Shown: positions 14,654-64,000 of the stretch, piece after piece
How the letters are laid out: each line of letters opens with the position of its first letter
Position numbering within the stretch: position 1 is the first letter of the stretch
DNA from: Desmodesmus armatus
Lineage: Eukaryota > Chlorophyta > Chlorophyceae > Sphaeropleales > Scenedesmaceae
Length of the DNA: 64,000 nucleotides
Assembly (NCBI GenBank): GCA_007449985.2
Contig: VIIQ02000044.1
Span: 32,152 to 96,151, forward strand
Direction of reading: 5' to 3'
Notes under the pieces: model-generated
The model's database searches: none
Told to the model about the DNA's origin: nothing
What the model saw: only the letters and a program-made list of their open reading frames with translations
Program-made: the position numbers and the translations under genes

Positions 14654-17600
14654 ATGAATCTCACAGATCTCCCCCGGCCCTTCATACGAGCGCTCCTCGA
14701 CGCCTTGGACCCTGATGACGGACGCTCTTTGTTGTTTGCTTCAGCATCTATCCTAAAGGCGCTTTCGGAGGTCAAGCCAGTCGCGCTAGTACGATGGGGA
14801 AGCACAGCAGCAGGTCCCACTTTGGAGCAGTTGCTGAGCAGTAGCGTGGTTGGAGCGCTGCTGGTTCCTGACAGCTGCAATGACTTTGAGCTGTCACCTG
14901 AGCTGCACCTGGACGGGTTAAAGACCGCTGTGCTGAGCTACAGGTACCAACGCCCCTGCTGCTGCGTCAGCAGCACCAGCGCATTGCGATGCATGGAGGG
15001 TCCGAGGACACGGGGACATACTGCCCCATGCTTCAGCTGATGCATGTTCGTGTACGATCAACTTAATCCCTCACGACAGTGCATATGTGGCTTCTTTCTG
15101 GCGGCAGCACACACCATCCAAAACGCTCTGAAGGGGCCATTACTCTCATGTAATGGTCAGTACGAAACACTCAGAAAGCTCACGTAACCACTCCTTTCTT
15201 TCTGCAGGCTTCCCAAGCTTGCCCGCAGCCTCAGCACATCTGCCCATGCAGCCAGCCTCAACAGCATCATCATCCGCGGTTGGGTGCTGGACCCGCACTT
15301 TGGGCAGCACCTGGCTACTTTCCTGCAGCACTTGCAGGACGTGGGCCCCCTGCGGAACCTTGTGCTGACCCTCCCATGCACACCGCCTGCAGCAGCAGCA
15401 GCCCTGGGCAAGCTCACCCAGCTGAAGTCGCTGCGCATGTGCATCGACGTGTGCCACAGTAGCGAGTTGATGCTGCGTCAGGACACAGGTGTGCTTATCT
15501 GCATTGACTCTGTGCTGTTGAGGGTGTTTGTATTGTGGGTTGCATGCAGCAGGAGAGAAGTCATGATAATGTTGATGACCCAAAAATGGATGTACGCGCA
15601 CTTCCATACATTCCTTACTCTGTCTGCATGCCGTGTGCATGCACACCAAACGCGCATGTGGACTGGGCTGACAAGCAGTGATTGGGTGCTGCCATGGCAG
15701 CATGCCTCTGCATGGCAGGCAGTCTGATCTGGTCCTCATCGCAGGTTCAGACGCGTACTACGATGTAACCAGCTGCATCCTACGGCCCTGGTCCCTGATG
15801 AGCCTCGCTGGCTCTTTGCGGCTTTGTGACACTGATATTCATGCGTGCCCTGAACCATGCAACAGCAGCAGCATCTTTCTTCCTGGCTGTCATGGCATTC
15901 CACCGCTGTTTCAACATGCGTTCTCCCCTCCCTCGCACTTGCAGATGTCACATGGACCGCAGAGTGCTGGCAAGCAGGCATCCAGCCCCTGGGCAACCTG
16001 ACCAGCCTGCATCTGCAGCTGCCGCTGGTGCTAGCAGCTGGTGCTGACCTGCAGCTCGAGTCTTTGTCAGGACTCAACAGACTTGAGCTGGTGCTGGATG
16101 AACCTAAGACACCCGGCGATGCAGCAGAGGTGAGGGAGTGTGCAGACCAGTGAGAATGACGTGACACCGCCCACCCTAGTGTACCCCCCCCCCCCGGGTG
16201 TGCCAAACAAGGATCCTGACAAGCTAGGATTTGGTGCAGCGAAAGGTGTGGCTGGATGAAAAAGTATATACCAGGCCGTGCAGTAGAAGTAGGGTGTGCA
16301 GAAAGCTGAGAAACGGCTGTGGTGGGAAGGGGTGTGGTGTGGCCCATCTGGTGGATGGATGAGCCCGAGACACCCGGCGATGCAGCAGAGGTACGAAGAT
16401 GCAGCGGCTCCTTGCCACCCTCCAGCTGCCATTGGCAGCTTTGCCAAACCAACAAGCGGGCCTGTAGCTGACCTCTTAGCACCGTCCGAGCTTATGCCTG
16501 CAGACCACCAGCACTGCTTTACAGGTGTCCTCTTGCAGTGTGCAGTTTGTGGACCATTACTCACCCACCGTGGCACGTGGCTGCTTCTGCTGTCGCTCCT
16601 GCCTTCTTCTGCAGCCTCCTGTCGGAGCCGCTGGAGGCGGTGCCCGAGCCGCCAACCTGCTCCTGCAACAGCCAGGCCTCCCCTCCCTGCAGCACCTGAC
16701 CCGACTCGTCCTCAGCACCACCTACCGCCACAACTCCTACGCCTTCGCTGGCTGGCCGGAAGAGTTGATGCACCACATGCCTCCAGAAGACACCATGGAG
16801 ATCCTTGCTCAGCTCACCAGCCTGCAAAGCCTGACTGTAACCCCACACGAATGGAGGTTCAGCCTGCAGCAGCTGCAGCCTCTGAGTGCTTGCAGTAGAC
16901 TCACAGAGCTGGTGTTGGCCCAGCTGGGGATGGGCTTTGCAGGTGTGGCTTTGGGGAGTGAGTGGAGCTTTGGCGGGAGGGTGGGTGGGTGGGAGGGGTG
17001 GTGGGGGTGTGCCCCCTGGAGAGTGAGTTCAGGTCCTGCAGGCTCACAGAGCTGGTGCTGGCGCAGCTGGGGATGGGCTTTGCAGGTGGGAGCTTTGGCG
17101 GGCTGGTTGGTGGGAGGGTGGATGGGCGGGAGGGAGGGCTGGCGGGAGGGTGCGAGGGGTGGTGGGGGTGTGCCCCTGGGGAGTGAGTGGAGCCGCAAGT
17201 GCCATTGCCTCAGCCCTCGAGCATGCATGTGATGAGCCGTTCTCAAAGGTTGCGAGGCTGATGGGAGGAATCCTATGGTGTTACGCTACAAAGAGGGTGT
17301 ATCTCATTCTTTCCTTCTTTCTTTCGCAGGAGATGTTCGCCACATTGATCGGCACGGGACGCAGCTGTCAACGCAGGAGAAGGCGGTCGTGCAGGCCGCA
17401 TTGGCAGCTACTGCGGCCCTCCATGCAGAGCAGCAGGGCGGGAGCGCCGGCCGCTCTGCTGCTGCCGCCCCCGGCGGCACAGTTGGCACAATAGGAGTAG
17501 GGACCACACCATCCACACCAGGAGCAGCAGCAGTGGTTGGGTCACCTTCTCAGGGGGTAGGGTCAGGAGCAGCAGCAACCGGTGGTGCTGACAGCAGTGT

Positions 17601-29310: not shown

Positions 29311-32300
29311 GCGAGCATCAGCCACATGCTGTAGCGGCTCTTACCGTCTAAGCCAAGTGGGGCTGAGTTGGCAATGGCTCTGTCACCTCCAGCCGCTGTT
29401 GCCGCCATCCCTTGGCCCCTCAGTGAGGCTGTTTGAGCTTCAGACTCATCTGCTGCTGCCACCATAGTACACTGTGCCCCCGGTGCTGCAGCACTGGTCT
29501 GGGTGTCACCCTGGCGTCGCTTACTGTGCAGATTGTAACTGGTGGCGCCCTGCGTCGGCACAGCAGACTTGTTGGTGGGACATACAAGACTCTGTGTACT
29601 GTAAGTGCAACAAATAGGGAGAAGAACTTGTCGGGACTGGTCAATCTTTCCACTTTTGACCTCAACACCATGGCTCAACTGGGGACCTGGGTCGACCTTC
29701 CTGTGAGTCACACCCCAAAGGTCTAGGATCTGATCCGTCTGCAGCTGCATGTGGACGCGTCCACATACGTGCTTTCAGTTGTTGCCTGGTGTGGACGTGC
29801 AGGTTGAATGCACAGCAGCAGCTGCATCACTTTGCGCATCACTCACCATTCAGTGCCTGGACCTTCGTGAGCATTCCGCCAGTTCTCGGCCAAGTCAGAA
29901 GCCATACAGCAGCACCTCCTACGCACATGCAGGAGGGCAACATCGTCATGTGAGCCCCTGAGCTGAGGCATACGTCTGCTGTGCATGTGTACGTATGAGG
30001 CAGGGTGTGCAATCACACACAAGCCACCAGTCTGCTGCGCGGCCTGTCAAGCAGCCTTGGCTGCTTTTCTATCCCGATGTCAGCATGGCTTCTGACTTCT
30101 TGCAAGACTATTGATCTGCCTTCTGCACAACTGTTGCAATTGCAGCTGATCATGGGTGGCTGAACTCACCCTGCATGTTGCCCAGTCGGCCAGCCTTCAG
30201 TAACTGTGAGTAACAGCGGCGCATACATGCTGTTCATCGCCAGTTTGCCGAGAATAGCGAGTTCTCCGGGTCTGCATTCTGTCCTTGCTGCTGGAACAGC
30301 AGCTCTGACAGCTGTAACACTGGGGAGCTGCTGCAGCGGCTGATCTGTGTACTGAAGCTATCAAGCGTCATATATGCAAGCATGTGATAGCGCTGCTGGA
30401 CCAGTGCGAGCTGCAGATGAGACAGACGGAACCAACCACCATGACGATCTCAAGTTTAGCAGTCGCATTTGCACAGCAAGTAGAGCTCACGAATGAGGAG
30501 AGCATGTGAGAGATACCACGGTTATGTCTAGGAAGCCTAGTGCAGTGGCAACGTTGCCAGCAGTTCAACTGCAATGCTCTGCTGACAGCCTGTTCAAACC
30601 AAACTTGGGGTTTGCAGGTGCAGCCTACAGCCGTTGATCAAGCAAAGCATGTGAAATGCCTCGTCAGTAGACAGTCTCTATGGAGCTCGAGTGCAATGCA
30701 CTTGCCCAAAACAAAGCAGCTGACTGCTGAGTTTCCAGGTGCACATCGCCAGCCAGCGCTGGCTAGCCAACCATTCACGTGCAAGTACATGTGGCTGTAC
30801 AGCCTGCCTTCTACTCCCCTTCTACTCCCCTGCTGCCCCATGTGATCAGGTTGACAGATATGCATATAGCCCAGTATACACAACCTGGTCGCACACTCAC
30901 TCAATGCACAGGACCACCACTTCAAGCCTGGCGGGTAGAGTACATCACGCAACAGTCAAGCATGAACTTGCAGTCCTATGGCTAGCCTTGTTCGAGGCTG
31001 TCAGCCCCCAACTAGGGCAGTCCACCCCCTCACACAACCCATCCAAGTAATCCTTGGTGGTGCCGTGGTCATGCCCAGGGGCTGGCTCGCCCCTAGCCGA
31101 TGCACTGGCCATAGGCTTCAAAACTATGATGGCCACAGGACAGCTGGGAGCAAAGTGTTGGAGGGTTGAGGATTCAAGGGCCTGGTGGCCACCACGATGA
31201 CACATACAGCGTACCAAAGGAATGTGCGTGCAGCAGTGCCCGCCACAGCACGAAACTATGGACGCGGTGACAGGAGAGTCTTAGTATGTTTGTTTGCAGG
31301 GTTGCACCAGCAATGCCCTCTCACAATGTTGTATGCCACTGGCTGTGACAGCTGGCCTTGCTACCACCCTAGTAGCAAGGTAGTGGCTACTACCCTGATA
31401 GCAGCCTGCTACTACGGTAGTAGCTTATTAATCCGCTACTACCTTAGTAGGAGGGTAGTAGCGGGCCAAAACACCCCTACTACCCCTACTACCAGGGTAG
31501 TAGCTCAGCCAGGCTGTTGGTAGGGTCATCGTCCAGCGAGTCATGGTCTGTACCACCACAACAATGGGTTGGTGCATGCGCGCACACTGTGGTGCATGCG
31601 GCATGCAAGAGTACTGAGACCTGTTGTATTGGCAGCAGGTGTCATGCCGTTCTGTCCTGCTGCTGGCCTTGCCTGGAGGGTTTTGCTGCTGCTAGCTACT
31701 GCTTGTCCATACCATCACAGTATACACTGCCCAAAATGATATTGCGAGAGCGTGCATAGGGCCCAAAAACATTGGATGATGCCATGCTGCTGTCTTGTAG
31801 GCATCTAAAGGGGCTCAGTAGGAGGGTGAAAGCCTCATCGTGGCTTTTTTCTGCACTGCCTATGCCGAAGAATTCCTGCCAGTCCTATGCCAGTGACCCA
31901 CCTGCAGACACGTGCTGAAGTATGCTGACCAGCAGCACCACACAAAAGACCAAAGCCCGCATCACGGTGTGCATGTTTGCGACTATATAGTATATTAAAA
32001 AAACGCAAAAAGCTCAACAAATTTGAAGTACTTGATAGGCTACGTCTAGGACGCAGCGTGCGGTGGCAAGCGCTTTTCACCCGTTCTATCGTCTGACGTC
32101 GATTGAAACTTTTGGTTTGGGCACGCGCTGCTAGTGCTGATATTTGGGCACGGGCTGCTAGTGCTCACAACGGGACAGCCAAACATGGATTGCGCTGTCC
32201 AACGTGTCACTGCGGCAACCGCCGCACCTGGCGGTCGACCCACCTTCGACGAGGGTCGGCAGTGCGACAACTCCAAGGGTCGTCAGGGCACGAGGTGTTA

Positions 32301-49960: not shown

Positions 49961-51045
49961 GTCTGCTGGAGTCACTGCACGGTGCATATTTACACCACTC
50001 ACTGACTCACTGCATGGTGCATGTCTACACCACTCAGTGACTCATTGCACGGTGCATGTCTACACCACTCACTGACTCTTTGTTTAGGCTGACCTGTCAA
50101 GGTGTCTCTCATCGGTGTGAGGCTAGACCTCAGGCTCCCGGCAGCTTCGGCTGTTGTGTGTGTGGCCAGCCGGTGGGGTCCGCCCCCCTTATCCTTACCA
50201 AAAATAATCACTGACTCACTGCACGGTGCATGTCTACACCACTCAGTGACTGGTGACCAGGGCAGTAGAGGTACCCTTACTACCCCTGGTCTGCACTGTG
50301 GAGCTATAAGTGAAGTGACTGTGTGAGCACGTTATATGTGGAGTGACTGTGTTGACCTGCCATATACGGCAAGGCCTTTCCCATGCACCGGTCACAGGTC
50401 CTCACACTGTGACGTATTTCACACCGGTTTCCCAGATGCAGTGAATATCTACTCAAACATCCGCACATCCGGAATCTCCCAGTGGAAAACGGATCTAATG
50501 ATGCGCTGAAAAGGCCCCAAACTGCTGCCAGCTATGTCAGGTAGTTCTGCTGCTGCCTGGTTTCAGCAGCCAGACTATCACCGAGTTCGAAGCCCAGACG
50601 CGCTCTAACATCGTTACATGTGCGTATTTGGAACCAAGCGTTGATGGTGGGGTCTAATGGTTCAAGAAGGACAGGGGAGTCACAAAACGCACAGCCAATG
50701 AACACCAGGGGTAATAAGGGTTACTACCACTACTAGTAAGTTACTACCCCTGATGACCACCAGTTGGGTTACCCAGCCCAACGTGCCCAGCCCAATGTGG
50801 GTTACTCAGTGATACTCAACACCCAATGGGCGCTGCTCGGCGCCGGACGAGCTTGTTTATGTGAAGTGAAGTGACTGTGTGAGTGAGTGTGACTGCGCGG
50901 AGGAACAACCTCCCACCGCCACCCCACCAACCCAACTCGACAAGTTTTCATGTCAGCAAAATATGTTTGCCTCCAGGGCTGGGGCAAAGGCAGTATGCTG
51001 CTCCTATGTCAGTGATCGTCTTTGGCAGTCATCTCTGGGTGCTGA
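49961..51045. repeat. 38-bp tandem repeat and intergenic stretch before copy 3
   Basis: A 38-bp unit containing GGTGCATGTCTACACCACTC is repeated about three times at 49973-50080 and again at 50208-50250. Near 50704-50755 there is a small array related to the CTACTACCCTAGTAG family. No exon is supported. Confidence 0.7.
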
Positions 51046-54000
51046 ATGGTGCGCAAAAAGCGCAGTGCAAAGCTGCAAACCATCGCTGTACAAGAAATTA
51101 GGGAATTGAGGCAGAAGGTTGAGACTCTTCAGCAGCGGGTGCAGCAGCTGAGTGTAGAGCAGGAGTGCCTGAGTGTGCAGCAGCACATCTTGGCTAGGAT
51201 ATGTGACCTGCTGCACTGCCTGAGAACAGGGGACGTTCATCAGGGCTGGGCAAATTGTTGGGTGGATGACTGGACGGATCAGTGGCTTCTTGAGGAACTG
51301 CCGCTGCTGCGGGACCTTGGTGTCCCGTACAACAGCAGCTTGGCAGCCCAACTCAGTCAGCTGCAGCTGACAAACCAGCAGGAGCAACAGCAAGAATCCA
51401 ACCAGATGCTATCCTTGCAGCCGCTGCAGCAGCCCCAGCAGCCGCTGCAGCACGCCAGCTCGAGTAATGGACATGATGAGGTGTCCATGACAGGGGAAGC
51501 AGAATCAGGGCCGGCGTCTGCATCAGCCGCAGCAGCTGCTGGTGCTGCTCTTGTTCACGGGGCTGCATCTGCCAATGCAGGACACCAATGCCAGTGGCAA
51601 CTCAAACAGCAGGTAGCACGGGAGGTGCTGCTGCAAGAGGACGGCTTCGCGGCTTTGGAGGCCCAACTGACTTGGGACCTTCAACAGCGGCAGCCACAGC
51701 AGCAGCATCAGGAGACAACAGGGCAGGCTGCCAGCAGGAGGCAACTGCAGGCAAGGTCAACCAGTACAGCATCTGCCGGGCATGCTGCTGCGTCAGCAGC
51801 TCTAGGACCAGCAGACGCAGCAGCAGCCCCACCAAACACAGTATCAGCAGGCAAGCAGCGGGACTCCCCCTTGCCAAAGGGCAACGGCAAGTCACCAACC
51901 ACTGCTGGGGCTGTTGGTGGTGGTGATGTTGGTAGTGATCGCAGCGCCGGTGGTGTGAGTTGTGCTGATGTCGGCAGTGACGGGGGTGGTGGTGGGTTTG
52001 GTCCTGCCACCCTACCATGGGGCGCTCCCCCACCACTTCCACCACCCACAGCACCCCACATGTACATGGCAGCACCCGGGGACTACCTCGGGTGCCTGCT
52101 GTACGTATTCTCACAGCCGCCGTACCCAGGAGCAGCAGACATGACTCTACAGCAGTTTGCCGAGCACTACGCATCGTTTGCGCGGAACGTGGCGTTGCAT
52201 TTGGCGCTTGCAGAGCAGCAGATGCCGCAGTTCGAGTGCACGGCAGTAGCAGCAGAACTGCCGCACATCCAGCAGCAGCCAGTGCCAGTGCCAGGGCAAG
52301 TGCCCACAGAGGGTGGGGCAGGGGGGCAGGGGTGTCCGCCTAGCAGCAGCCAAGACACGCTGCAGCAGCAACGGCCACCGCTGATGCAAGATCAGCCGCC
52401 GCCGGCGCCGCAGCAGCAGCAGCAGCAGCACCCACAGCAAGGGTGCGGTGCCGGCCATCCACTGCATGCGCTGCGCGCGTTCTTCCTCGAACATGCCCGG
52501 TTGATCATCAGTCTGATGATGCTGCATCAGGGTGACCTCCTGCCCAGGGTGCGGGCGTGCAACCTCAGCACGCTGGAAGTGGAGGATGGAGGCAACCAGG
52601 TAGGCATACGCTTTGTTTCTTGCGTTCGTTCATCGTTTATAGCCAACCCTTCATAGCTCCTCCGGCCTGTGTTGGTGCCGTGCCCTGTGTCTGATTTTTT
52701 TGTTTGGTTTTTTTGGGTGCCCTGTGTCTGTTGGCTGGCCCTTGCTGCGCTCTGCTGCTGCGTACTGTCTGTGTGCTTGCTTGCCTGGTGTGTGCGTGCA
52801 TGCGCGCGTGCTGTCTGTAGACTTTGCTCCTTGTCCGTGCCCTGTGGAATGTGCTTCATGTCCCCTGCAGGGGTGACAGCAACCACCCAGGCTGGGAGAC
52901 GCGTGGCATGGGCTGTACTGTACTCTGTCTGTGCCTTGAACTCAAGCAGCGCCCTGTGCTGCTGTTGTGCTGTTCTTTGCTGAGCTGTGCTGTGTACTGT
53001 GCCGTGCTGTGCCCTGTGCTGGGTGCCTCGTCCCTCTACAGGCCTGGCAGCGCACTTGCTGGCTGGTGGACCGCCTGCAGCTGCGCAGCGATCAGCAGGC
53101 CGCAATCGTCTCCGGCAACAGCTTGTTCAAGCAGCTCATCGCTCAACTGTTGGCAGCGCGACAGGAGCTGCAGCAGCACCAGCAGCAGCAAGCGGCGCTG
53201 CGGCTGCCCACCGGTCGGGCTGTGGACCTCGCTGAGCAAGACCAGCTGGCACAACGGCTGCAGGTGCGGGGAGGGGGCATGCATTTGAACGGAGGTCTCC
53301 GGTTTCCAGGTGTTGAGCGTGCATATCGCCCTGTATGCTGGAGAAGACATGCAGGCACACTCGTGTCCTGTCCAACACACTTGTGGCATGGTTCCGTGAC
53401 CCTTGCATGGCTGTTTTGCTGTTTTGATTGCCGCGGTTCGTGGGGCGGGCTGCAACACTAAACAGCAGCAGCCGGCAGACTGGCTGCAGGCAGCTGTGAA
53501 GCAACGGCTGTTTCTCTGCACAGATCAGCAATTAAGTGCTATGGCATAGGCCAGCGGCATCGGTACTGCCGTATGCAAGCAGTCCATTCCCCGATGAGAA
53601 AGAGATTGAGAGTCTCAGTCTGTTTCAAACACACTAAGTATCAAACACACTTACACAAGCCTCAGCACTCCCATTGTCTCTACACCTCGTGTGAATGTAC
53701 ACCAGGTGCAAAGCAGCCCGCGTGTCTTTGTCGCAAAGAAGCCAGCAACCTCGTCACACTATCACTCCCTGTCCTGCACCGCACTCCACAACCCTTCTGG
53801 GGTACGCAAGTAAGGCCCTCTGGGCACCCTCATGAGCCCGAGGCTTGCTGGCTTGCTTCGAGGTTGGGACCCTGTCCCCAATTACTGTACTGTACTGTAC
53901 TTTGCGCAGGTGCTTGTGAAGAAGGAGCTGTTCCTGGTGACATGCGCCTCAGCCTTTGTGAGTGGAGTGTTGGACGTGGTGCAGCTGGGCAAGTGTGTGG

Positions 54001-54119
54001 TGCTTGCGTGGCCCTTCATCACACAAATGATGATGCTGGGGCCTGTGGTGGTTGAAAAGGTCCAACAGCAGCAGGAGCAGGAGCAGCAGCGGCGCCAGCA
54101 GGAGCAGCACAAGCAGTAG
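51046..54119 (+). CDS. Gln-rich coiled-coil protein, copy 3 (3 exons), unrecognised family
   Basis: Exons 51046-52599, 53042-53263 and 53910-54119 encode 661 aa, with the same exon phases as copies 1 and 2. The start MVRKKRSAKL leads into a coiled coil (IRELRQKVETLQQRVQQLSV). The Gln-rich linker is longest here, and the conserved block is DYLGCLLYVFSQPPYPGAAD. Exon 2 begins AWQRTCWLVDRLQLRSDQQ. Exon 3 (VLVKKELFLVTCASAFVSGV) is hydrophobic and ends in QQQEQEQQRRQQEQHKQ. The protein is intact in all exons, so all three copies may be expressed. Function unknown. Confidence 0.75.
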
Positions 54120-55735
54120 CAGCCGCTGGGCCTGGGTAAGAGGGGATGAGTTGGTTGCATGGGTTTGGATTGTGAGGCTTGGAACCGCCTGACAATATTG
54201 AGAGTGTGGTTCTACAGTTTCTGTGAGAGGGTGTGGTGAAGGTGCTGGGTGCTGCTGTATTATGCTGAATTGCCGCTTTGGCTGCATTTGGTTTAGCTGC
54301 CTATTATGGAGGTTTTTTTTTTACAAGTTGATACTTCACTGCTGGGCGCTGATTTGCTCTGCTGGCGCAGCAGGGCGGCTAGAGACTTGCACCTCGTCAG
54401 TTGCAAGCAGTCAAGCTCCATGACAGATCTTGACGTATACTTGCGGCTAGCTGTTAGGGGACGTCAAATCCTGCAGATTTTGGCGCCAGGCATGACTGTG
54501 TTTGTTGTGACCATGTGCCTTCTGAACCAAGGCATGGGGTCGGTCATCGTCTTAGTTCACGCCTATTGCGTGGTGGCTTGCGTTGGTGCAGGCAGCAAGC
54601 ACTGTAGTGGGGTGGTGCCATTCTGGGCACTTGGCTGCAGTTCAAGTGTTTCAGAGGGCCCTTGAAGCTGTGTGCGGTTGCATGGGTGGTCGTGCTTTGC
54701 AGCGCGCTGGCCGCCATGCTTGGCTGTGTGCATTGTTTGTGTAAGTGTGGGTAAGTGCGTGTGCGCGCACACGTGTGTGCGTGTGCTTGTGTAATGGAGG
54801 CTTGCGTGATGGAGGCCTTGACTGCAATTTGCTGGGCAAACCCTGCCAACACCTGGCAGCTTGTTTCAAATTGTGTTTGTCAGGTACATATTGCGTGAGT
54901 GAGGGTATGGTGGCACTGGAGCAGTTTGCTTGCACAATCTAGCCTTTTGTTGGTAGTCGCATTTGTGCATACAACAAGATTTGTTGGAGGAAGTACCCAT
55001 GGGTTTGTGAGTGGGTGTGAATCGCCTGCCCAGGTCTTGGTCTTTTGCGTGCCTGTGCGGTCTGAAGCTGCAGGTACTGCAGCTGCTGTTGGCTGCTGTT
55101 GTCAACTTGAGTGCAGGCTGCTCAGCACTGCCCTTCATGCCCTCTGCTTTGTTTGTGTGTCAACCCGCCTGAGCTGACATGAGGGGTTTCTCTCAATGCG
55201 CATGCTTGACTAACAGCTACTTGGGTTGCAGTGGGTGTGCGCCTGCTGTTTTAGCCTGGGTAAGTTGTCAACGGGTTGCCCTGGTGCTCTAGGACTGCTG
55301 AGCTGTGAAGCTGAGGTATGCATGCTGCGCTGTGTATGGACATACGTGTTTTTGTGTGTGGAGGCTGGGACAGAAAAATGCCTGCATGGGATCTGCAGCA
55401 ACGTATGTGGTCGGTGCTGCTGAACAAAGTTGTGTTGGTGTTGGTGCTGCTCATCAGCCAGATTGGACTAATCATCAGCCAGATTGGACTAATCATCAGC
55501 CAGATTGGACTAATCAACCACCGCCATGCTGTGCCATGCCGTGCCATGCTGTGCCATGCTGTGCTGTGTGTTATGCCCCTTGAGACCCAACCTGATTGTC
55601 ACCCAACCCAACCTGAATGTCAGACACTCTGAAGAGGGCATGATCAGCCCAGAGAGTTGCTCGTTTGCCATTTGGGCCTGCTTCTCTTGTGGGTGGGTCG
55701 TGTTGTTGGCAAGCTGGGAGGAGGGCACGTCCCTG
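51046..55735 (+). repeat. Third duplicated segment (direct copy of 44820-49960)
   Basis: It holds copy 3 and about 1.6 kb of related flank. The flank is more diverged from copy 2 than the exons are. It also contains a 21-bp repeat in triplicate at 55454-55516 (ATCAGCCAGATTGGACTAATC-type), absent from the other copies. Confidence 0.75.
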
Positions 55736-56301
55736 TGGCCGACTCCTTTGCTGGTCTACTATTTGCTGGTGTGCAGGCAGCCTGGTTGGTCAAAGTGTCA
55801 GGGATGGTCAAAGGGTGCCGCTGGCAAGCTTCAATTCCCTTAGCTCCAGGGGGCTGCTGTCATCCTTAGGGCCTGTTCCTGTTGTGGCTCTGTTCAACTG
55901 CCTGTTTGCAGGTGACTGTTTAGTGCAAACATGACTGTTGGCTGTACAGAACACAAACAGCCCATTCACATGTCTGTGCAGTCTGTCTGTGCAGTCTGTC
56001 CTTGACCATCCAGTTCCTACCTTGCCTCCAAGAGGGGTGTAACCGGACTCCGGCGGGACATCCTCGGAGGATGTGACTCAGTCGATGTCAAAAGATGAGC
56101 ACTCCAGCACAAGGCCCAGCACACTACGCATGTTGCATGAACTCCTTACATCGTACATCGGATCGGATCGTTTATGTTGCTGCCATTGGAAGGACACTAC
56201 TTCATACTGGTCTTTGAATGCTTTGCCTTGGGTGTCTAGACAGAGACGATCACAACTGCAACCAATCTTTTGCACGAAGCTGACTTGCGAGTACACTACC
56301 A
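55736..56301. other. Stretch without a supported gene
   Basis: It lies between the duplicated segment and the retrotransposon's 3' region. No exon or repeat is supported. Confidence 0.4.
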
Positions 56302-56351
56302 TGACGCAGTAGAACACTGACCTGCTCAGATTGCTGCTAGGGGTGTACACT
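56302..56351. repeat. 50-bp direct repeat, left copy
   Basis: It is identical to 56948-56997 (plus strand begins TGACGCAGTAGAACACTGAC and ends GGGGTGTACACT). Read on the minus strand, the unit starts TGTACACC and ends GCGTCA, i.e. TG...CA. It could be an LTR edge, a nested LTR fragment, or a terminal repeat of a small element between the copies. Confidence 0.85.
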
Positions 56352-56947
56352 AGTGGTTTGCTGCCTAAAGCTTGCAGCAATGATGCTTCGCAGCCAGCTG
56401 GCTGCTCTGAGGGTAGCAGATACTCACTTGTAGTCCTTTGCAAAGTGTTGATGCGCTGTATGAATGTATGAGTGATGTTCAGGCACCCGGTTCGACCACA
56501 GGTCGCTGCTGGGGCTGGTTGCTGCACCTGTGCGCTCTGAATTGGGGATTCAAATGAGCGAGTACTCGGGAAACACTGCCAGAAGTTTACACCAAGCACT
56601 GTCAAAGCCGAGTGCGACGCACAGAGCACCACAGCGGCACAAAGGAATCGGCACTGCAGGCGGTAAACCCTGAACCCGCCAGTGATCCTTCACCTGTGCA
56701 TCGCAGCACCAAACTCATCGCATACAACTCCCAAGCACTTAACCACCAATAATAGCACTGCCACGCAGCAGTATCTGGCATGATCTGATATCACCCAGAG
56801 TCCTTGTTGACTCAACATGATTAGTCAACTATCACACTGATTCTGCTAAGGCATGTGTTGTATAGCCTTGTACACAGCATAACCTTCCTGTGAGGATTAC
56901 TGCTCACTCAGCAGGAATCGGTCAGTGTAGCTGCTGCTCGTGTCAGC

Positions 56948-56997
56948 TGACGCAGTAGAACACTGACCTGCTCAGATTGCTGCTAGGGGTGTACACT
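56948..56997. repeat. 50-bp direct repeat, right copy, next to a purine tract
   Basis: Second copy of the unit at 56302. On its right the plus strand reads CCCCCCCACT, i.e. a purine tract immediately upstream on the element's coding strand. That is the position expected for a polypurine tract bordering the 3' LTR. Confidence 0.85.
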
Positions 56998-57733
56998 CCC
57001 CCCCACTGCTGCTGGGGTAACACTACACAGCAGCAGTACTCACATTGAGCAGCTACAAACAACCCAATCCAAAAGCAACATGCAACAGCTGATAGCACAC
57101 AGCTGATGCGCAACGCACGGGGAAAACTGCACATTGCTTGCAGAGAATGCTGCTGTGACCACACAACACAAGTCAACAGACATTTTTGTTTTTTGTCTTT
57201 TCTCACTACGGCATCTAGGCACATCCAGACGCTGGGCACACACACTACAACGCATGTGATGTTTGTGCATTGCACAGTCAATAAAACACACACACATAAT
57301 TGACAAACAAACCCAGCCACTGCTGGATCTGCTGCACACAAGTGAGTCATGCAGCACTCACTTAACTACTCAGGAAGCATATTTCACTGAGCTTGACAAG
57401 CACAAACAGTGGCCCTTTGCGCTCACTGCTGCTAAATCCCAACCAACATGCAAGCAGGACAGATGCCCCCACATCGTTCGCATGTGAAAGGCAAAGCTAC
57501 TATCCACAATGTCCAATAAATCAACTGCTGCTCCCAACCTCCTGCAAAGCTGCTTGCCAGTCTGGGCACCCCCAGCTGGCACAAACCATCGCTCCAGCAG
57601 AGGCCACTCCAGACGGCCTTAAACCACTGCTGCCAAAAGCTGCTGTCGCTACCAAAGGCCAATCCAGACGGCCCAGCAATTGCTGCTGCTGCTGCTAATT
57701 GCTGCGGCAGCACCTGCTGTCTCTGCCATATCA

Positions 57734-58978
57734 TTACCTGCGCCGGGTGTTGGAACGGTATGCCAGGCGATCCTGCTTGTATGCTGTTCGCAGGAAGCAG
57801 ATTGGGCATGTGTCGTTAAGTTTTGGGTTCTTCTCCGGGTTGTGCGCTGGGTCGTGTGCTGCCACTGGGAACCACGTGCCCTGGTAATCCATAACTCCTG
57901 CTAATCCATAACCGTCCTTGCCCACCCTGCAGTTGTTGCGGGTAAAGCCCAAAGGAGGGAGCTCGTACTCAGGTACGTCTGCGGGTTTGGGAGGCCCGTC
58001 CATGTCGTACTTGCTGCTGCTGCGACCACCACGGTCCTGGTTGTCGTCCTTGCCGCGGCCCTTGCTGCGGCTCCTGCTGCGTTTGGGCTTGCGCTCCCTG
58101 TTGTCGGCATTGGGGCTGCGGCCGCGGCTCCCGCTGCGCTCCTGCGTATGCTCCCCATCATTACCCTTGCCGCTGCTGCTGCTTCCGCGCTGCGGAGGCA
58201 CAAACTCTAAGGGTAGTTTCACGCGACTCCAATCAAAGCCTACTGCTGCAGGTGCCTCGTGGTTTGCTGCCGGCTCTACTGCGCGGTTCCCTTCTGCAGC
58301 CCTTGCCTTCGCTGCTGCCTCCTTTGCAAGTGCTTCAGCTGCTGCAGCCTCCCTTGCTGCAGCCTCCCTTGCTGCAGCCTCCCTTGCTGCAGCCTCCCTT
58401 GCTGCAGCCTCCCTTGCTGCAGCTGCCCGTGCTGCTTCTGCCTCCAAGTCTGTATCTGCATTCTGCAGCATGTGCTGGTCTGCCTCCTTTGCCCGCCTTG
58501 CCGCAACTGTGAGGTCCTCTGACATCCCGTTGGCATAGCCGCCAAGGTGACATGCAACACGGGTGATGCCAAGCACGTCCATTGCTGCTTCGCGCTCCAC
58601 CCATCGCTGCTGCTCTAGTGTAAGCTGCCACAAGCTCCTGTCAATACCCCTCAGCTCATCCCTGTCCCGCCGAAGCCCATGGTAGATTGCGCGTACCCTC
58701 GTGACCAGTTGGCCGGCTGGGTCCTCCGCTACTGCTGCAGGCAGGTCCATGTGAGCTGCTATGTCCTGCTGCATGGGCTCCTCAGGCAAGCCCTCGCCCC
58801 CAAAGTCCGGCTGCTCTGCACCCTCACTGTCTGGCTGCTGAGGCAACTCCTCCTCTCCAGATCCTAGCAGTGCCACTTCCTCACTGACTGGCTGCTCCTG
58901 CAACTCCTCCCAGGAGTCCTCCCCGTAGTCCAGCTGCTCCTCTATTACACTGCTGGCACCAGGTGCTGTGTCGGGCAT
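57734..58978 (-). CDS. SR-rich third ORF of the retrotransposon (gag-like or accessory)
   Basis: Met at 58978 gives about 414 aa. The N-terminus is acidic (EEELPQQPDSEGAEQPD). A helical region follows (VRAIYHGLRRDRDELRGIDR). Next is an Ala/Glu/Arg stretch encoded by 15-bp repeats (AAREAAAREAAAREAA) and an Arg/Ser-rich basic region (KPKRSRSRSKGRGKDD). It ends with a small CxxC-containing tail (NDTCPICFLRTAYKQDR). Its frame is -1 relative to the preceding ORF, overlapping it by about 35-49 nt. Basic and CxxC features suggest nucleic-acid binding as in Gag, but position after integrase is unusual for Gag, so it may be an accessory ORF. No family recognised. Confidence 0.6.
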   Translation of the reverse strand: MPDTAPGASSVIEEQLDYGEDSWEELQEQPVSEEVALLGSGEEELPQQPDSEGAEQPDFGGEGLPEEPMQQDIAAHMDLPAAVAEDPAGQLVTRVRAIYHGLRRDRDELRGIDRSLWQLTLEQQRWVEREAAMDVLGITRVACHLGGYANGMSEDLTVAARRAKEADQHMLQNADTDLEAEAARAAAAREAAAREAAAREAAAREAAAREAAAAEALAKEAAAKARAAEGNRAVEPAANHEAPAAVGFDWSRVKLPLEFVPPQRGSSSSGKGNDGEHTQERSGSRGRSPNADNRERKPKRSRSRSKGRGKDDNQDRGGRSSSKYDMDGPPKPADVPEYELPPLGFTRNNCRVGKDGYGLAGVMDYQGTWFPVAAHDPAHNPEKNPKLNDTCPICFLRTAYKQDRLAYRSNTRRR

Positions 58979-61900
58979 AAATGAGAACACGCCCTACTGA
59001 GCACCAGCCAGCAGCCATTCTTGCCCCTGAATGCTGCTGCTCGCCGTTGCTGCTTGAGTGCACTGAACAGAGGGTGGATGTCAGCTGGAAACGCCAGTGA
59101 AGGCACGTAACAGAGCACCACCAATGGCCTCATTTGCAGTGCTGTGAAAACTGCATGAAGCACAAAGGGTGCTGTAGGTGTAATGATGATGGCTGTAGCG
59201 CCGTGCTGTACAGGCCCGCAGCCCACAGTGAACGGTCGCCCAGCAAAAACCTGCTGCCACTGGGTGTTGAGTGTTAGTGGGTCCACCAGGGCTTGAACCA
59301 GGGACATCTGCACTGTAAGCTGCAGCAACTGCACATCTGCCGGTGAGACCCTTGTGGAAGGAACAGCTACTGAACCGCCAGCAACCCTGCTGACCAGCTG
59401 TCGTGCGTACGCCACTGCTGCTGCCAGTGACTCTGGTGTAGGAATGCTGACCCCAGGTGGCAGCACTGCATCCTCCGGCTGCAGGTAGCGCTTGATGCCT
59501 GCCATGGTGGCGTGGTGAGAGTCCCCATCTTCGTACACCACTCGGAAGTAGTATGGGCGTGACTCAGCATCCTTGAAGTAGATCCTGCCCCAGTACTTCC
59601 TGCCTTTCCCGGTGGCTGGATCCGTGAACGCCTTCAGCACCAGTCGGCCATGCAGCGCATGTGCTGCTTCGTCCCTGCGCTTCATTTGCGCGCCGGGGAA
59701 TATGTTTGGCCTGGCCTCCCGCTCCTGTAGCTGCTGCCGCTGCTGCTCCCTGCCAGCAGCATCCTGTTCTGTGTAGCCAGCGTCCACACACTCCGGGCAC
59801 AGCCACACACCGTCAGGCACACTGCTGAGTGGTGGTTGCAAGCAGTAGGTATGGTATCCGCTGTTGCACACGTCACACAGCATGAGCTCGGCCCCGTTGT
59901 CGCTGGTGCTGCATACCTCACAGACCACATCATCTGTGTTGTCCACCAGCAGTGGGTCGATGCCGCCGTCGATATCAGGCAAGTGGCAGGGTGCACAGTG
60001 AGACATGTGCACCTCAATGGTCCGGCCACAGCGCCCCTGCAGGTGCAGTACCCCAGAGTCCCGCACCTCCAGAACTCGCAGAATGAGGGGTTTGGCCCTG
60101 GGCTGTAGCTTGCTTGCCCGGTTAAGCTGCTGAGTGTAGACGTAGTCACCCACCATAAACCTGTGAACGCGTGGCTTGTAGTCAGGCGCACGCAGCTGCA
60201 GGTAACGGCGCTGATCCCTGTGCTGTGCAATCGCCAGGTTCTCCAGCGCAATGGGCACCTGCTGCTTTAGCCGCTCCTTACGCTGCAGTAGGTCCTTGAC
60301 AGCCGCCTCAGCACTGATGTCCAGGGGTGTGCTGACAAGCTCCTTCACTGCAGGTGGAATGACCGGTGGACGTGCATACATGAGTTCGTACGGGCTGTGG
60401 CCTGTGCTGGCCTGTGGAGAGCAGCGGTAGCCCAGTGCCAGCCATGCCAAGTCCTCATCCCACTGCTTGACACTGTGCCTTGCCACTGCCATTTTGGTAA
60501 GCGCCCGCTTGACGATGTGCACAGCCTTCTCTGCCTGACCATTGGCCTGAGGGTGGTCTGCACTGATGATGGCATGATCGATGAGCGCATCCTCCAGGAG
60601 CTTGGCAAACTCGCCCTCAAACTCTGTCCCTGAGTCTGTCACCACCTGCCCTGGTGCTGCAAAGTGTGCCAATACACCGTGCAAGAAGTGGTATGCAGTG
60701 GTCTCCGCCTTGTCGTTTTCCATCGGCACCACCACCAGGTACTTGCTGAATGCCTCAACACACACCAGCACATACTTGTTGCCCTTTGCACTCTTGGGTA
60801 GTGGCCCAGCTGTGTCCACGTGCCACCTGAAACCCATGCTGCTGATTGGAATGGGGCGCAGCTCCTCCGGCTTGGCGGTGAAGCTGGCATGCACCCTGCT
60901 GCAGTGCTCGCAGCGTGACAGCACTGTTGCAACGTCCGCCAGTAACCCATACCACCAGTGCTTACTGAGTAGCATGGCTGAGGTGCGCCGCCTGCCAAAG
61001 TGCCCACACATCTCGTGTTGCTGCCGTATGAGACCAGCACGCGCCTGTGGTGGAGGTACCAGCCTGTCGGTGCCATCTGGCATCCTCCTGATCAGCTGCT
61101 GGTCCTTGAAGTAGTATGAGCGTGCACGTCGCTTGATACGTGCTGCCTGGCTGGCTGCCAGGTCTTGTGGGAGTTGCCCTGTTCTGATGTACTCCAGGGT
61201 CTTATCGTCGGCCCAGATGTCACCTTGGCTCGTAGCCGTAGTGTTCTCCTGGTAGCCAGCTGTCATGGCTAGCTGCTGCTGATAGCCATGTGGGGTTGCA
61301 GTTGCCTCTCTGCCAGGCCACTCCTGCGCCAGTTCCCCTTCGTGTGCGCTGAATGCACGTGTCGCCAAGTCAGTAGAGGTAGGCAGGCCCCGCAGGAACC
61401 AAGCCTTGGCGATGGCCATGAGCACCTGCAAAGTGTTGGCATCCATGCTTTCACCGAGCAACGCACACCGCTGCGCTTGTGTGAGGCCTGCTGCTGCTGT
61501 GCTGCCTGGAAGATAGCCCAGAGCTACCTCTCTCTCCTCTGCTGTTGGCTCGCCCCACTTGACTACAGCAGGCACCGTTGTGTCCAAAACACTGCCAGGC
61601 TGGCCAGGCCTGAAGGCGTAGGAGCGTGCGCTGCTGACCAAGGTAGGCCAGGCTGCGCGAGGCTGCCCTGGTGCGTTGCAGGGGTAGAGAGGAGCAGCGT
61701 CTGGTCGGTTGACAGGTTGCGCGGTCCTGCCAGGTCCCAAGGCAAGCTGTACGCTGCGTGCGGGTGGCCTCTTGACAAATGCCAAAGCTGCTCGCAGTTG
61801 ACTGGGCCCAACCAGGTTGGACCAGAAGTTGCGCGCCCGATGTGCAAGGCTGCCAAACTGTGCTGCGTCCAGCACCACAGGTAACCCTAGGCACGCCTTG

Positions 61901-62832
61901 ATTTTATTGAAGTCATGCTGACTGATGCTGCTCAGCCTGTGCTGCTGCAAGAGCACATTCTCCACCAGGTAGGCTGGGGGCTGGTGTGGGAGTAGCTGTT
62001 GCAACGCTCCCACTACCCTGACCAGGTCAAACAGCAGTTGAGCCCGATCACCCCGAAGCCCCTGTGACTTGCCTGCTGCAGAGAAGTCTTGACAGGGCCA
62101 GCCTCCTACTACCAGCCATTGCTTGACTGGTGCCTCGCTGACAGCCTTGCTGAGCTGCTGTGTGGTGATGTGCCTCACATCCATGGGAAGAATGCTGAAA
62201 CTGCCAGCCAAAGCATCCTCCGGTAGCTGCTTGGGATACATGCTTTGCAGCACCCTGATCCTGTGTAACGCCGCCCGCTGTGCCATGGGGTTGATGTCGC
62301 TGTACAGGTACTGTTTGACTGTGATGCCACTCCTGAGCACCATCTCCAGCCCTGCGCAGATGCCACCAAACGGCTCATAAAGCACGATGCCCTGCTGCAG
62401 CGCTGCCGGGAAGAACGTGTCTGCCACAGTAGCCGTGCACAGCCCTTGTGTCTCCCTTACGCCCCAGGGGTCCAATGCACCTGTGTACACTCCTGGCTGG
62501 AAGCTGTCCGGTTGGGGCTGTTGTAGCCCTGCCAATGTGACCCACGCCGATGCTGCCTGCTGTAGGTCATGCTGCCGCCAAGCTACTGCTGGGTGTTGTG
62601 TGTCCACGCAGCAGCCATCGTCAGCAAAAAGTTGTCCTGCTGTCTCCCCCCCCAGCAATGAGTCGGCGGTTGGGGCGAATGTGTCCACTGCAGACTCGTT
62701 GCTGCACAGTAGACAACACAACGCCTCGTGCTCCAGCTGTTCATGACTGTAGCTGTCTGCTGGTTCTGCCGCCAGCGCTGCTGCTGGGCTGTGAAGGATT
62801 GGGCAGTCACCAGGTGTTTCCTCATAAGCCAT
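58945..62832 (-). CDS. Retrotransposon polyprotein: C5-DNA methyltransferase, integrase, PHD finger, Tudor-like domain
   Basis: One uninterrupted ORF. Residues here count from a GTG at 62841; first ATG is 62832. Methyltransferase about 150-485: motif I EPFGGICAGLEM, SDINPM, GGWPCQDFSAAGKSQGL with catalytic Cys250, ENV at 294, RARNFW near 335, and LLGESMDANTLQ near 462. The order and end motif resemble the Dnmt3-like group. A linker leads to the integrase zinc finger H609-H614-C644-C647, then the core with D676, D736 and E771 (a D,D35E triad). A C-terminal barrel region near 895-950 follows. PHD finger: C974, C977, C989, C992, H997, C1000, W1013, C1015, C1018. Tudor-like: YWGRIYF...YYFRVVYEDGDS (1083-1107). 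Every catalytic and metal residue looks intact, although the upstream RT is frameshifted. Confidence 0.93.
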   Translation of the reverse strand: MAYEETPGDCPILHSPAAALAAEPADSYSHEQLEHEALCCLLCSNESAVDTFAPTADSLLGGETAGQLFADDGCCVDTQHPAVAWRQHDLQQAASAWVTLAGLQQPQPDSFQPGVYTGALDPWGVRETQGLCTATVADTFFPAALQQGIVLYEPFGGICAGLEMVLRSGITVKQYLYSDINPMAQRAALHRIRVLQSMYPKQLPEDALAGSFSILPMDVRHITTQQLSKAVSEAPVKQWLVVGGWPCQDFSAAGKSQGLRGDRAQLLFDLVRVVGALQQLLPHQPPAYLVENVLLQQHRLSSISQHDFNKIKACLGLPVVLDAAQFGSLAHRARNFWSNLVGPSQLRAALAFVKRPPARSVQLALGPGRTAQPVNRPDAAPLYPCNAPGQPRAAWPTLVSSARSYAFRPGQPGSVLDTTVPAVVKWGEPTAEEREVALGYLPGSTAAAGLTQAQRCALLGESMDANTLQVLMAIAKAWFLRGLPTSTDLATRAFSAHEGELAQEWPGREATATPHGYQQQLAMTAGYQENTTATSQGDIWADDKTLEYIRTGQLPQDLAASQAARIKRRARSYYFKDQQLIRRMPDGTDRLVPPPQARAGLIRQQHEMCGHFGRRRTSAMLLSKHWWYGLLADVATVLSRCEHCSRVHASFTAKPEELRPIPISSMGFRWHVDTAGPLPKSAKGNKYVLVCVEAFSKYLVVVPMENDKAETTAYHFLHGVLAHFAAPGQVVTDSGTEFEGEFAKLLEDALIDHAIISADHPQANGQAEKAVHIVKRALTKMAVARHSVKQWDEDLAWLALGYRCSPQASTGHSPYELMYARPPVIPPAVKELVSTPLDISAEAAVKDLLQRKERLKQQVPIALENLAIAQHRDQRRYLQLRAPDYKPRVHRFMVGDYVYTQQLNRASKLQPRAKPLILRVLEVRDSGVLHLQGRCGRTIEVHMSHCAPCHLPDIDGGIDPLLVDNTDDVVCEVCSTSDNGAELMLCDVCNSGYHTYCLQPPLSSVPDGVWLCPECVDAGYTEQDAAGREQQRQQLQEREARPNIFPGAQMKRRDEAAHALHGRLVLKAFTDPATGKGRKYWGRIYFKDAESRPYYFRVVYEDGDSHHATMAGIKRYLQPEDAVLPPGVSIPTPESLAAAVAYARQLVSRVAGGSVAVPSTRVSPADVQLLQLTVQMSLVQALVDPLTLNTQWQQVFAGRPFTVGCGPVQHGATAIIITPTAPFVLHAVFTALQMRPLVVLCYVPSLAFPADIHPLFSALKQQRRAAAFRGKNGCWLVLSRACSHLCPTQHLVPAV

Positions 62833-63998
62833 TGCTGCCACTCCAGCTGCTGCTGTTGATTTGCTGCCAATGCCCAGCTCCAGTGCCAGACTGTCATGTG
62901 TGTAGACCAGTGGGTCCGTTGTTTTGCAGCTGGCAGAAGCACAGTGGGCACCCAGTCATGCAGCTCCGTGTCCAACCTGGCTCCAGTGGTGTCTGCCACA
63001 CAGCTACTGGCTTCCCTGCTAGGCACATCAGCTGGGTTTGACTTGCCTGCCCTGTGCACCAGTGAGAAGCGGTACTCCTGAAGTGCCAGAATCCAACGCA
63101 TCTGCTGCCCCACTGGTGTCTTCTGTGTCAGCAGCCATAACAGCGCCCGGTGGTCGCTGTGGAGATAGAACTCCCTGGAGTGCAAGTACGGCCTGTACAT
63201 TTTGACGCCCCACACTGCTGCCATCATCTCGCCTTTCCAGGCGGGATAGTTCTGCTCAGCTGCATTGAGGGACCTGCTGGCACAGGCCACCATGTACTCC
63301 GTCCCATCCTCCGCCTCCTGATTCAGCACAGCTGCAATGCCCGTGTTGCTCCAGTCGACATACAGATGAAAACTGCGCCCATCCACAGGCTGCCTGAGCC
63401 CCAAACCCTTCTTGCACAGCGCCGTTCGAAGCCCCTCATACGCCTGGTTACAGTCATCACTCCAGATGTACTGCGCACCCTTCTCCATAAGCTTGTAAAG
63501 CGGCCTGGCAATGATGGCAAAGTTGGGCACATAGCACCTGTAGTAATTAAACAGGCCAAGGTGGGCCTGCAGGCGCTTGAGGCTGGTGGGTGGCTGCAGT
63601 GCCTTGATGCCTGCAATCTTGGCTGGCTCCGGCTTGCACTCCTTGGCTGATACCAGGTGACCCAGGTAAGGCAAGCAGTCTGCACCCACGATTGTCTTGG
63701 CAGGGTGCAGGCGCAAGCCCACTGTCTTGAGATGCTGTAGAAGTGTTCTGAAGTTGGTCACCATGTCCTCCCAGGTGTCGCACCACATGATAACGTCATC
63801 GACGAACGGCGCCGCACAGTGAGACAAACCAGCTGCTGCCAGCTCCTTCTCCATAACCGCTGGAAAATTGCCGTGGCGTTCACGTGACCAAAACACAGCC
63901 GCGTGTAGGTCAGTCGCTTGCCACTGTGGGTGCGTGGAAGGCCACGTGCTGCTGCGCCTCTTCGCTCAGGTTGAGCTGCCAAAAGCCCGCTCTAAGTC
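62583..63998 (-). pseudogene. Reverse transcriptase-RNase H, partial and frameshifted
   Basis: The intact part (63896-62583) has the RT catalytic motif FVDD near 63800, palm/thumb motifs (RLHPAKTIVGADCLPYLGH, LQAHLGLFNYYRCYVPNF) and a full RNase H with D181, E223, D248 and D290 (LYVDWS, KGEMMA, HSDHRAL, NPADVPSR; numbering from 63896). Upstream, LRAGFWQLNLSEEAQQHVAF and GKRLTYTRLCFGHVNATAIF are clear RT fingers/palm pieces but lie in two other registers, with shifts near 63930 and 63855. The 5' end is cut by the window. The following methyltransferase ORF is in the -1 frame and overlaps by up to about 370 nt. Either the copy is dead for RT or the assembly has indels there. Confidence 0.9.
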
Positions 63999-64000
63999 CG

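Follow-up and report, generated by a model that had tools for sequence, protein, structure and literature searches.

Why some retrotransposons bear the very enzyme by which they are normally silenced is a long-standing puzzle. In the accessible text of de Mendoza et al. 2018 (PMC5890265), a DNMT3 is reported within a Gypsy element of the charophyte Klebsormidium nitens, KnitGypsy-Dnmt3, which has DIRS-like repeats, along with two retrotransposon types of Symbiodinium (SymbioDIRS-Dnmt3 and SymbioLINE-Dnmt), and the charophyte and dinoflagellate cases are treated as independent captures. CG methylation in yeast was obtained with the DIRS enzymes, and the result was inconclusive for the Klebsormidium Gypsy enzyme; the earlier reports of a link between DNMTs and reverse transcriptases (RTs) cited there include Iyer et al. 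2011. The available portion of PMC12344493 likewise places DNMT3 members in retrotransposons of streptophytes and dinoflagellates, and that of PMC6338049 mentions, without detail, that green algae and charophytes have Gypsy and DIRS retrotransposons encoding DAM and DCM, which speaks against regarding such elements as new to green algae. Here, we analyze a 64,000-nucleotide stretch of the chlorophyte Desmodesmus armatus (“the window”; positions 32,152 to 96,151 of contig VIIQ02000044.1, hereafter C40:32152-96151), which holds the 3′ part of a Ty3/Gypsy-type retrotransposon with a DNMT3-class C5 cytosine methyltransferase (MT) in its polyprotein. This kind of element is already known (de Mendoza et al. 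2018); chlorophyte and liverwort members, a shift in MT position, and circle-joint scars in retrotransposons with a DDE integrase were undescribed in the accessible literature searched, most subscription journals and all preprints lying outside that search.

KnitGypsy-Dnmt3, as portrayed in the available text of PMC5890265, resembles the Desmodesmus element in its Gypsy backbone, in a DNMT3-class MT within the Pol open reading frame (ORF), in a repeat order of A-coding-B-A-B, and in an MT under purifying selection. It differs in host lineage, the likeness being drawn from its description and not from its sequence, and target duplications, joint scars, and a circle are not described for it in that text. 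The Symbiodinium elements also carry a C5 methyltransferase, that of the DIRS element being of DNMT3 class and giving CG methylation in yeast. Unlike the present element, however, they are DIRS elements with a tyrosine recombinase, or long interspersed nuclear elements (LINEs), and have no DDE integrase.

The element lies on the minus strand, as do all of its features given below, with its 3′ ~7.7 kb at 56302-64000 and its 5′ part beyond the end of contig C40 (96151 bases), which is also the end of the window. A copy on contig C13, with outer ends at C13:369981 and about 383925, indicates a full length of ~13.9 kb, so that the extent of 58945..63998 proposed in a first-pass annotation of the sequence was too short at both ends. 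The pol ORF of the window copy (58945..62841, 1298 aa) contains, according to Pfam, the MT (61342..62424, the 361 aa used in searches; PF00145, E = 1.4e-10), an integrase H2C2 zinc finger (Integrase_H2C2, 60889..61056, E = 7.1e-11), a DDE-type integrase core (rve, 60559..60828, E = 2.5e-9), a PHD finger (59788..59922, E = 6.3e-12), and a Tudor-like stretch below its family cut-off (PF21743, 59515..59649, E = 0.0011). Upstream, a separate frame (62583-63896) encodes the 3′ part of the RT (63657..63824, with an FVDD motif at 63786-63806), the rest of which is lost at the contig end, and RNase H (RT_RNaseH, 63072..63377, E = 7.5e-31). The integrase retains its catalytic D, D, and E, the last lying 35 positions past the second D (34 residues between). 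RT-RNase H followed by an H2C2 and rve integrase is the Ty3/Gypsy order, with the MT as an extra domain between RNase H (RH) and integrase (IN), and the assignment of the RT itself to Ty3/Gypsy rests on Pfam similarity. The domain order bears out the first-pass annotation, in which a complete C5 methyltransferase, fused in frame to an HHCC/D,D35E integrase, occupied the tether that links RNase H to the integrase zinc finger. Its claim of one frame directly following RT-RNase H applies to other copies, such as the C13 copy (L010) with a single 1916-aa pol frame from RT-RH through MT-IN, but not to the window copy, in which the two frames overlap at a frame break (62583..62841).

The methyltransferase motifs named by that annotation were all located, namely EPFGGICAGLE (62344-62376), WPCQDFS with the catalytic Cys (62080-62100), VENVLL (61948-61965), HRARNFWSNL (61813-61842), and LLGESMD (61441-61461), and include the S-adenosylmethionine motif, catalytic Cys motif, ENV, and RxR of C5 methyltransferases. 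In a single-sequence search of the PDB, DNMT3A was the top match (E = 3.5e-8), ahead of DNMT3B, DNMT3C, DRM2 (2.7e-4), and bacterial enzymes. A profile built from nine diverse element MTs gave DNMT3A at 2.2e-23, 4onj (named only as a DNA methyltransferase, and presumably tobacco DRM) at 1.7e-14, DRM2 at 1.2e-12, HhaI at 2.1e-11, DNMT2 at 9.4e-4, and DNMT1 at 0.38. For the predicted structure (predicted local distance difference test 92.8, predicted template modeling score 0.90), the best 50 of 120 Foldseek rows (E ≤ 0.001) were all DNMT3, with template modeling scores up to 0.83 (target length). By profile and by predicted fold, the MT is of the DNMT3 class and unpermuted, with DNMT1, DNMT2, and bacterial enzymes all more distant from it than DNMT3 is.

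We then evaluated conservation and selection on this domain. In an alignment of 120 rows, comprising the window MT and 119 of 132 related proteins (13 were dropped for coverage), no row has lost the catalytic Cys, the E or N of ENV, or the second R of HRxR (120 of 120 for each), and this strict conservation of catalytic residues indicates that the activity matters. Since pairs with the window family were mostly saturated, ratios of non-synonymous to synonymous substitution rates (dN/dS) were drawn from pairs among the other families of the genome, and were 0.10-0.16 for the MT (15 between-family pairs, dS > 0.7). One locus, L003, was excluded from these; it has stops within the MT and dN/dS values of 0.26-0.95, and was taken as decayed. 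Divergence of the RT, MT, and IN domains was also strongly correlated across proteins (r = 0.83-0.87; highest value under the null, 0.31; 62/107 proteins), consistent with their co-evolution. Overall, constraint on the MT appears clear from these comparisons, yet weaker than on RNase H and integrase.

The repeats and ends of the element suggest how it replicates. At the 3′ end, two copies of a 50-nt repeat (B) lie 646 bases apart with another repeat (A) between them. Read in the direction of the element, a polypurine-tract-like GTGGGGGGG (56998..57006) stands directly before the internal copy B1 (56948..56997), followed by a GC dinucleotide (56946..56947) that forms the center of the palindrome TCAGCTGA and is absent at the outer ends, by the internal A2 (56353..56945), which begins with TGACACG and matches A1, by one extra T at the A2/B2 junction (56352..56352), and by the terminal B2 (56302..56351), which is 100% identical to B1 and ends with ...CTGCGTCA. 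Homology to most copies stops here, and the flanks beyond 56302 differ from copy to copy. The element starts at its 5′ side with A1, as seen in the C13 copy (L018:2655-3244), and A alone was matched at 10 other places. Rather than two full direct long terminal repeats (LTRs), the outer ends have A alone at the 5′ side and B-GC-A-B at the 3′ side, i.e., a DIRS-like split-direct-repeat order, A-ORFs-B-GC-A-B, found in two families. PAT-type DIRS elements have split direct repeats in a comparable order (A-ORFs-B-A-B) and integrate through a tyrosine recombinase without target duplication, whereas the present element has a DDE integrase and 4-bp duplications; four ORFs scanned in the C13 copy gave no Pfam match to a tyrosine recombinase.

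All 10 of the 5′ ends examined start with the TGACACG of A, preceded by unrelated sequence and not by B, and 3′ ends of ...CTGCGTCA were found in 10 copies (window included) in one reading and 12 in another, the copy on C633 being left out as its contig stops before B2. For four of the six copies with both flanks read, the insertion is bordered by a 4-bp target duplication (C13 CTGT, C39 GGCG, C774 TCAA, C78 TTGT), while none of 30 mismatched flank pairs shared an identical 4 bp; TG...CA ends with a duplication in the 4-6 bp range are as found in Ty3/Gypsy elements. A second family, with an MT 61% identical, shares this layout in three copies (C78, C774, C773), with a B of about 190 nt, a G-rich GTGGGGGGGG directly before B1, and an internal joint of CGTCA-GC-TG in which the GC is present in 4/4 copies. 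C774 and C773 have a common 3′ flank and may represent one insertion, and the B2 end of C774 is one base shorter. As a separate observation, CpGs lie a few bases either side of the proposed integrase cut in both families (CGTCA-GC-TGACACG and, in the second, CGTCA-GC-TGTCGCG).

The two joints within the 3′ repeat block behave very differently. The internal B1-GC-A2 joint reads TCAGCTG in 20/20 copies, 19 of which also belong to the set of 21 scored for the A2/B2 joint. At A2/B2, by contrast, 11 of the 21 copies have A and B directly joined, six have an added A, three (window included) an added T, and one has AAGCCA; of 20 rows, only one varied in the sequence adjoining this joint (about 26-32 nt ahead of it and 10 nt past it). 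In the last copy, on C683, AAGCC corresponds to the 5 nt following A1, and A is the first base past A1; bases of the primer site at the A2/B2 joint are the expected outcome if the complementary DNA (cDNA) ran into that site. In the copy on C39, outside the 21, A is shorter by ~45 nt and B by 7 nt, with an 11-nt filler at the joint, yet the target duplication is perfect. Variation at A2/B2 beside a constant internal joint is the pattern expected from end-joined LTR circles.

The following cycle would account for these features. As read from the anatomy, the unit of reverse transcription would be B-GC-A, with the polypurine-like tract before B1 and a presumed primer site after A1, so that reverse transcription would yield a linear (B-GC-A)-ORFs-(B-GC-A) DNA. 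Host end-joining would then close this DNA to a circle, as suggested by joint scars that differ between copies, with the A2/B2 joint keeping additions, primer-site bases, or losses. The DDE integrase would open the circle at the palindromic internal B-GC-A, as suggested by the TG...CA ends, the loss of the outer GC, and the 4-bp duplications; opening an end-joined circle at this place yields exactly the integrated order A-ORFs-B-GC-A-B. Retroviral integrases offer a partial precedent: according to the available text of PMC1905944 and PMC1180852, they cut the palindrome at 2-LTR circle junctions. Both cases would thus combine a circle-junction palindrome with a DDE integrase; there, however, the palindrome is the LTR-LTR joint itself, whereas here the proposed site is encoded inside the repeat and the joint is left as a scar. 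The MT, made as part of the same polyprotein, may methylate the double-stranded DNA of the element, perhaps as a waiting circle, and the new DNA, once methylated, would resemble a CpG-methylated host genome. Among the uses of the enzyme, we consider methylation of the cDNA or circle of the element itself the most likely, at about even odds. Taken together, we consider this to be a recently active Ty3/Gypsy-type family with a DNMT3-class MT in pol, a circular intermediate, and methylation of its own DNA, with a probability of roughly 60% for the combination. A wider statement is more tentative, and we lean slightly against it: that a lineage of DDE elements of green plants has its LTR ends joined into a circle by the host and the circle cut by integrase at an encoded TCA-GC-TGA palindrome inside the repeat, with the DNMT3 domain having evolved as a partner that methylates a long-lived nuclear circle. 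It would follow, with the same reserve, that each insertion keeps the scar of its circle, and that the CpGs by the integrase site may be methylated, so that the circle passes for host DNA or as a gate on integration.

Several observations weigh against this combination. The copies on C629 and C99 (two of six) have no 4-bp duplication, and the C647 copy of the second family has the internal joint and no B2 at the expected place. The losses in C39 could postdate its insertion, and C559 and C560 share a flank, as C630 and C645 nearly do, so that some entries in the joint census may be duplicates of a single insertion in the assembly. The sequence after A1, examined by eye, does not begin with TGG, as a tRNA primer site usually would. 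With regard to the enzyme, the MT evolved faster than its neighbors in the pair L004 and L006 (dN/dS: MT 0.105, RNase H 0.037, integrase 0.011), and close MT pairs (dS < 0.1) gave dN/dS values of 0.24-0.70 on few changes. Finally, there is no CpG depletion specific to the element, which would have been a sign of self-methylation: relative to the rest of the window, the observed/expected ratio is nearly the same (0.48 in the element, 0.47 outside).

This last result bears on the strongest alternative, i.e., that the MT acts in trans on integrated copies or on host DNA, limiting the activity of the element or easing its tolerance. CpG is depleted, with TG and CA in excess, both in and outside the element, which suggests that the host methylates CpG broadly, and a depletion that is alike inside and outside (0.47-0.48) is expected if all DNA is methylated. 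The PHD finger and Tudor-like stretch after the integrase could aim the polyprotein at chromatin, and the options raised in the accessible discussion of PMC5890265 include effects on insertion-site chromatin and slowed retrotransposition alongside cDNA methylation. Nevertheless, the MT and integrase belong to one polyprotein and the RT, MT, and IN trees are concordant, which fits a role in a transposition step better, albeit not decisively. We regard an action in trans as unlikely, although it is the rival that survives best, and retain methylation of the element’s own DNA as the preferred reading.

Next, we evaluated the distribution of this MT family. A search with the MT region of the window-family pol returned at least 100 homologous protein clusters from other data sets. 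Of those listed, the ones naming an organism came from two Scenedesmus strains, Scenedesmus sp. PABB004 (“pol”) and NREL 46B-D3, while P0003 and P0033 had transcriptome-style ORF names. Further searches yielded 7 and 29 relatives, including four Marchantia polymorpha proteins and one from Closterium sp. NIES-53. No match named for Klebsormidium nitens appeared, including with the divergent queries P0099 and P0094, most matches being without an organism name. The pol of Scenedesmus sp. PABB004 (P0042), a further green-algal MT-integrase fusion of the kind the first-pass annotation had proposed to look for, has RT, RH, MT, IN, and PHD and an MT 53.9% identical to that of the window, and differs in having gag-like, protease-like, pol, and tail regions in a single 3225-aa frame (by eye). 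Among 132 proteins, many of them fragments, the domain order was RT-RH-MT-IN-PHD in 70, RT-RH-MT-IN in 5, MT-IN-PHD in 18, MT-IN in 1, and RT-RH-MT in 3, as opposed to MT-RT-RH-IN with or without PHD in 9 and MT-RT-RH in 2 (“MT-first”); 24 had the MT alone. The Closterium protein (P0132) carries the same MT family in a retroelement-like ORF, with the MT before the RT. The ORFs of Marchantia, a laboratory plant (P0121, P0125, P0127, P0129), also have this MT family (38.6% identity between the window and P0121), placed towards the end and with no RT, and P0121, deposited under a CCHC-type name, has a gag-like start with CCHC knuckles. P0094 and P0121 are both gag-like ORFs ending in the MT, and 20 of the 24 MT-alone proteins form one clade with P0094 and Marchantia.

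Three domain trees of 61, 59, and 60 sequences were built, the first with 10, the second with 8, and the third with 9 of the 11 MT-first rows (those with sufficient coverage); the other sequences were sampled from the remaining proteins, excluding gag-MT ORFs that lack an RT. The MT-first set was separate in both the RT and MT trees (ultrafast bootstrap, UFBoot, 100 each). In the integrase tree, only six of eight MT-first rows grouped together (96), and P0124 and P0126 fell outside, perhaps through an exchange of integrases. An HhaI-rooted MT tree, which included Marchantia along with one DNMT3 and one bacterial enzyme, and from which Closterium was dropped for coverage, contained a 91-row clade (support 0.79) that takes in the RH-MT-IN rows but none of the nine MT-first rows. 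This topology suggests an older MT-first order, from which the MT moved a single time into the tether linking RNase H and integrase. This view is weakened by deep-node supports of 0.11 to 0.98 with a poor outgroup.

Alternatively, chlorophyte elements may have taken up a DNMT3-like gene independently of streptophyte elements, as the first-pass annotation had also envisaged. The different place of the MT (after RNase H or before the RT), the separation of both groups in the RT and MT trees, and the identity of P0099 to the window MT (30.6%), hardly above that of DNMT3A (27.7%), are all compatible with this scenario. However, the Marchantia protein (38.6%) and P0096 (38.7%) are clearly closer to the window MT, and both groups share an RT-RH-IN backbone. 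As described in the available text of PMC5890265, the charophyte element also shares the DNMT3 class, the Gypsy backbone, and A-coding-B-A-B repeats. The separation itself comes from trees in which host DNMT3 genes were absent, a single DNMT3 and a single bacterial enzyme being the outside comparison, and most MT-first rows are without an organism name. With related MTs before the RT in Closterium and in gag-like ORFs of Marchantia, an independent chlorophyte capture is thus unsupported, and we consider it doubtful, somewhat more so than an action in trans.

A third alternative is that the element integrates as a linear LTR molecule and subsequently undergoes recombination or truncation, the A2/B2 differences being ordinary mutations. 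The copies without a 4-bp duplication (2/6) and the C647 copy without B2 would be readily explained in this way. It fits poorly, however, with 5′ ends exactly at the TG of A in 10/10 copies and with a GC spacer that is missing from the outer ends. This alternative would also have to account for variation in 10/21 copies at A2/B2 compared with 1/20 in the adjoining sequence and 0/20 at the internal joint, and for the same layout in a second family as distant as 61% MT identity, with 4-bp duplications in both copies for which the two flanks are available. We therefore judge linear integration improbable and favor the circle.

Less probable still is that the MT domain is no longer an enzyme and serves as a DNA-binding or assembly module. 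The residue preceding the catalytic Cys is P in 79 of the 120 aligned rows, the others having E (35), S (5), or A (1), and ENT replaces ENV in 32/120; E, S, or A before the Cys and T in ENV are unusual for the C5 methyltransferase family. Yet the Cys, E, N, and second R of HRxR are invariant, WPCQ and ENV are of the standard form in the window family, and MT dN/dS is 0.10-0.16 in the usable pairs. A loose motif search had suggested a degenerate MT in the WEC/ENT group, a possibility that was rejected as the alignment has the Cys in every row.

Lastly, a chimera, misassembly, or recent host-gene insertion, hinted at by a window copy that stops at the contig end and has a frame break, can be set aside almost entirely, as it is refuted by at least 36 same-score copies and relatives in other data sets, and as three host-like PF00145 loci (C146, C11, C769) fail the element-MT profile while three others are element fragments. 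These copies come from a PF00145 search of the 115.8-Mb genome, whose match counts are lower bounds: at least 64 matches were obtained, at least 36 of them with an identical score (E = 5.5e-10, 44.8 bits) and two more, on C671 and C582, with a nearly equal one. An open frame of ≥1937 aa is present in 18 of the 36. Of eight fetched copies, six are 99.88-99.90% identical to the window copy over 5012 bases, and the others are L017 (99.90% over 4979 bases) and L016 (99.64% over 6906 bases). The many fused copies also mean that neither outcome that would have undone the first-pass annotation, a fusion unique to this locus or a recent host insertion, was encountered, nothing pointing to the latter, and its suggestion of a wider family was well founded.

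A host donor of the MT within this genome was considered and rejected. Six PF00145 loci unlike the element were read, of which C163, C129, and C287 are element fragments and C146, C11, and C769 have host-like exons with no match to the element-MT profile (best E > 1). The exons at L039 (C146:125500-133499) look DNMT1-type by eye, C11 is alike by similarity, and L043 (C769) has exons of another host C5 methyltransferase gene, the type of which is unclear. No DNMT3-like host gene was found among the loci read, which do not comprise every match.

The 3′ region of the element also includes a third ORF (57734..58990), 418 aa here and 411 aa in L010, which matched no Pfam family. A 215-nt segment that 23 matched copies contain, and that the window copy, C629, and C99 lack, has its insertion point at 58993..58996, as located by copy comparison (counterpart region L010:1957-2168; its ends may slide by a few bases). 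With GC...AG ends and a CTAAC near the 3′ end (by eye), it is in the simplest reading an intron, which would have been lost through reverse transcription of spliced RNA. Adjoining the 3′ end of the element, window positions 53696-56301 match, at 98% identity, one unit of the 6.2-kb tandem array that contigs C628 and C629 carry, and a 44-nt direct repeat occurs four times at 49964-50251, with spacings of 35, 35, and 174 bases. At C634:14184-15474, two element 3′ ends stand head to head and meet at 14829-14832, probably as a palindromic assembly artefact.

Overall, a single MT family is found across elements named for Scenedesmus, Closterium, and Marchantia, and since it is spread in this way with catalytic residues intact in every aligned row, the carriage of a silencing enzyme by these retrotransposons looks like an old and selected trait. 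The junction scars, in turn, would constitute a genomic record of a circular intermediate in a retroelement with a DDE integrase.

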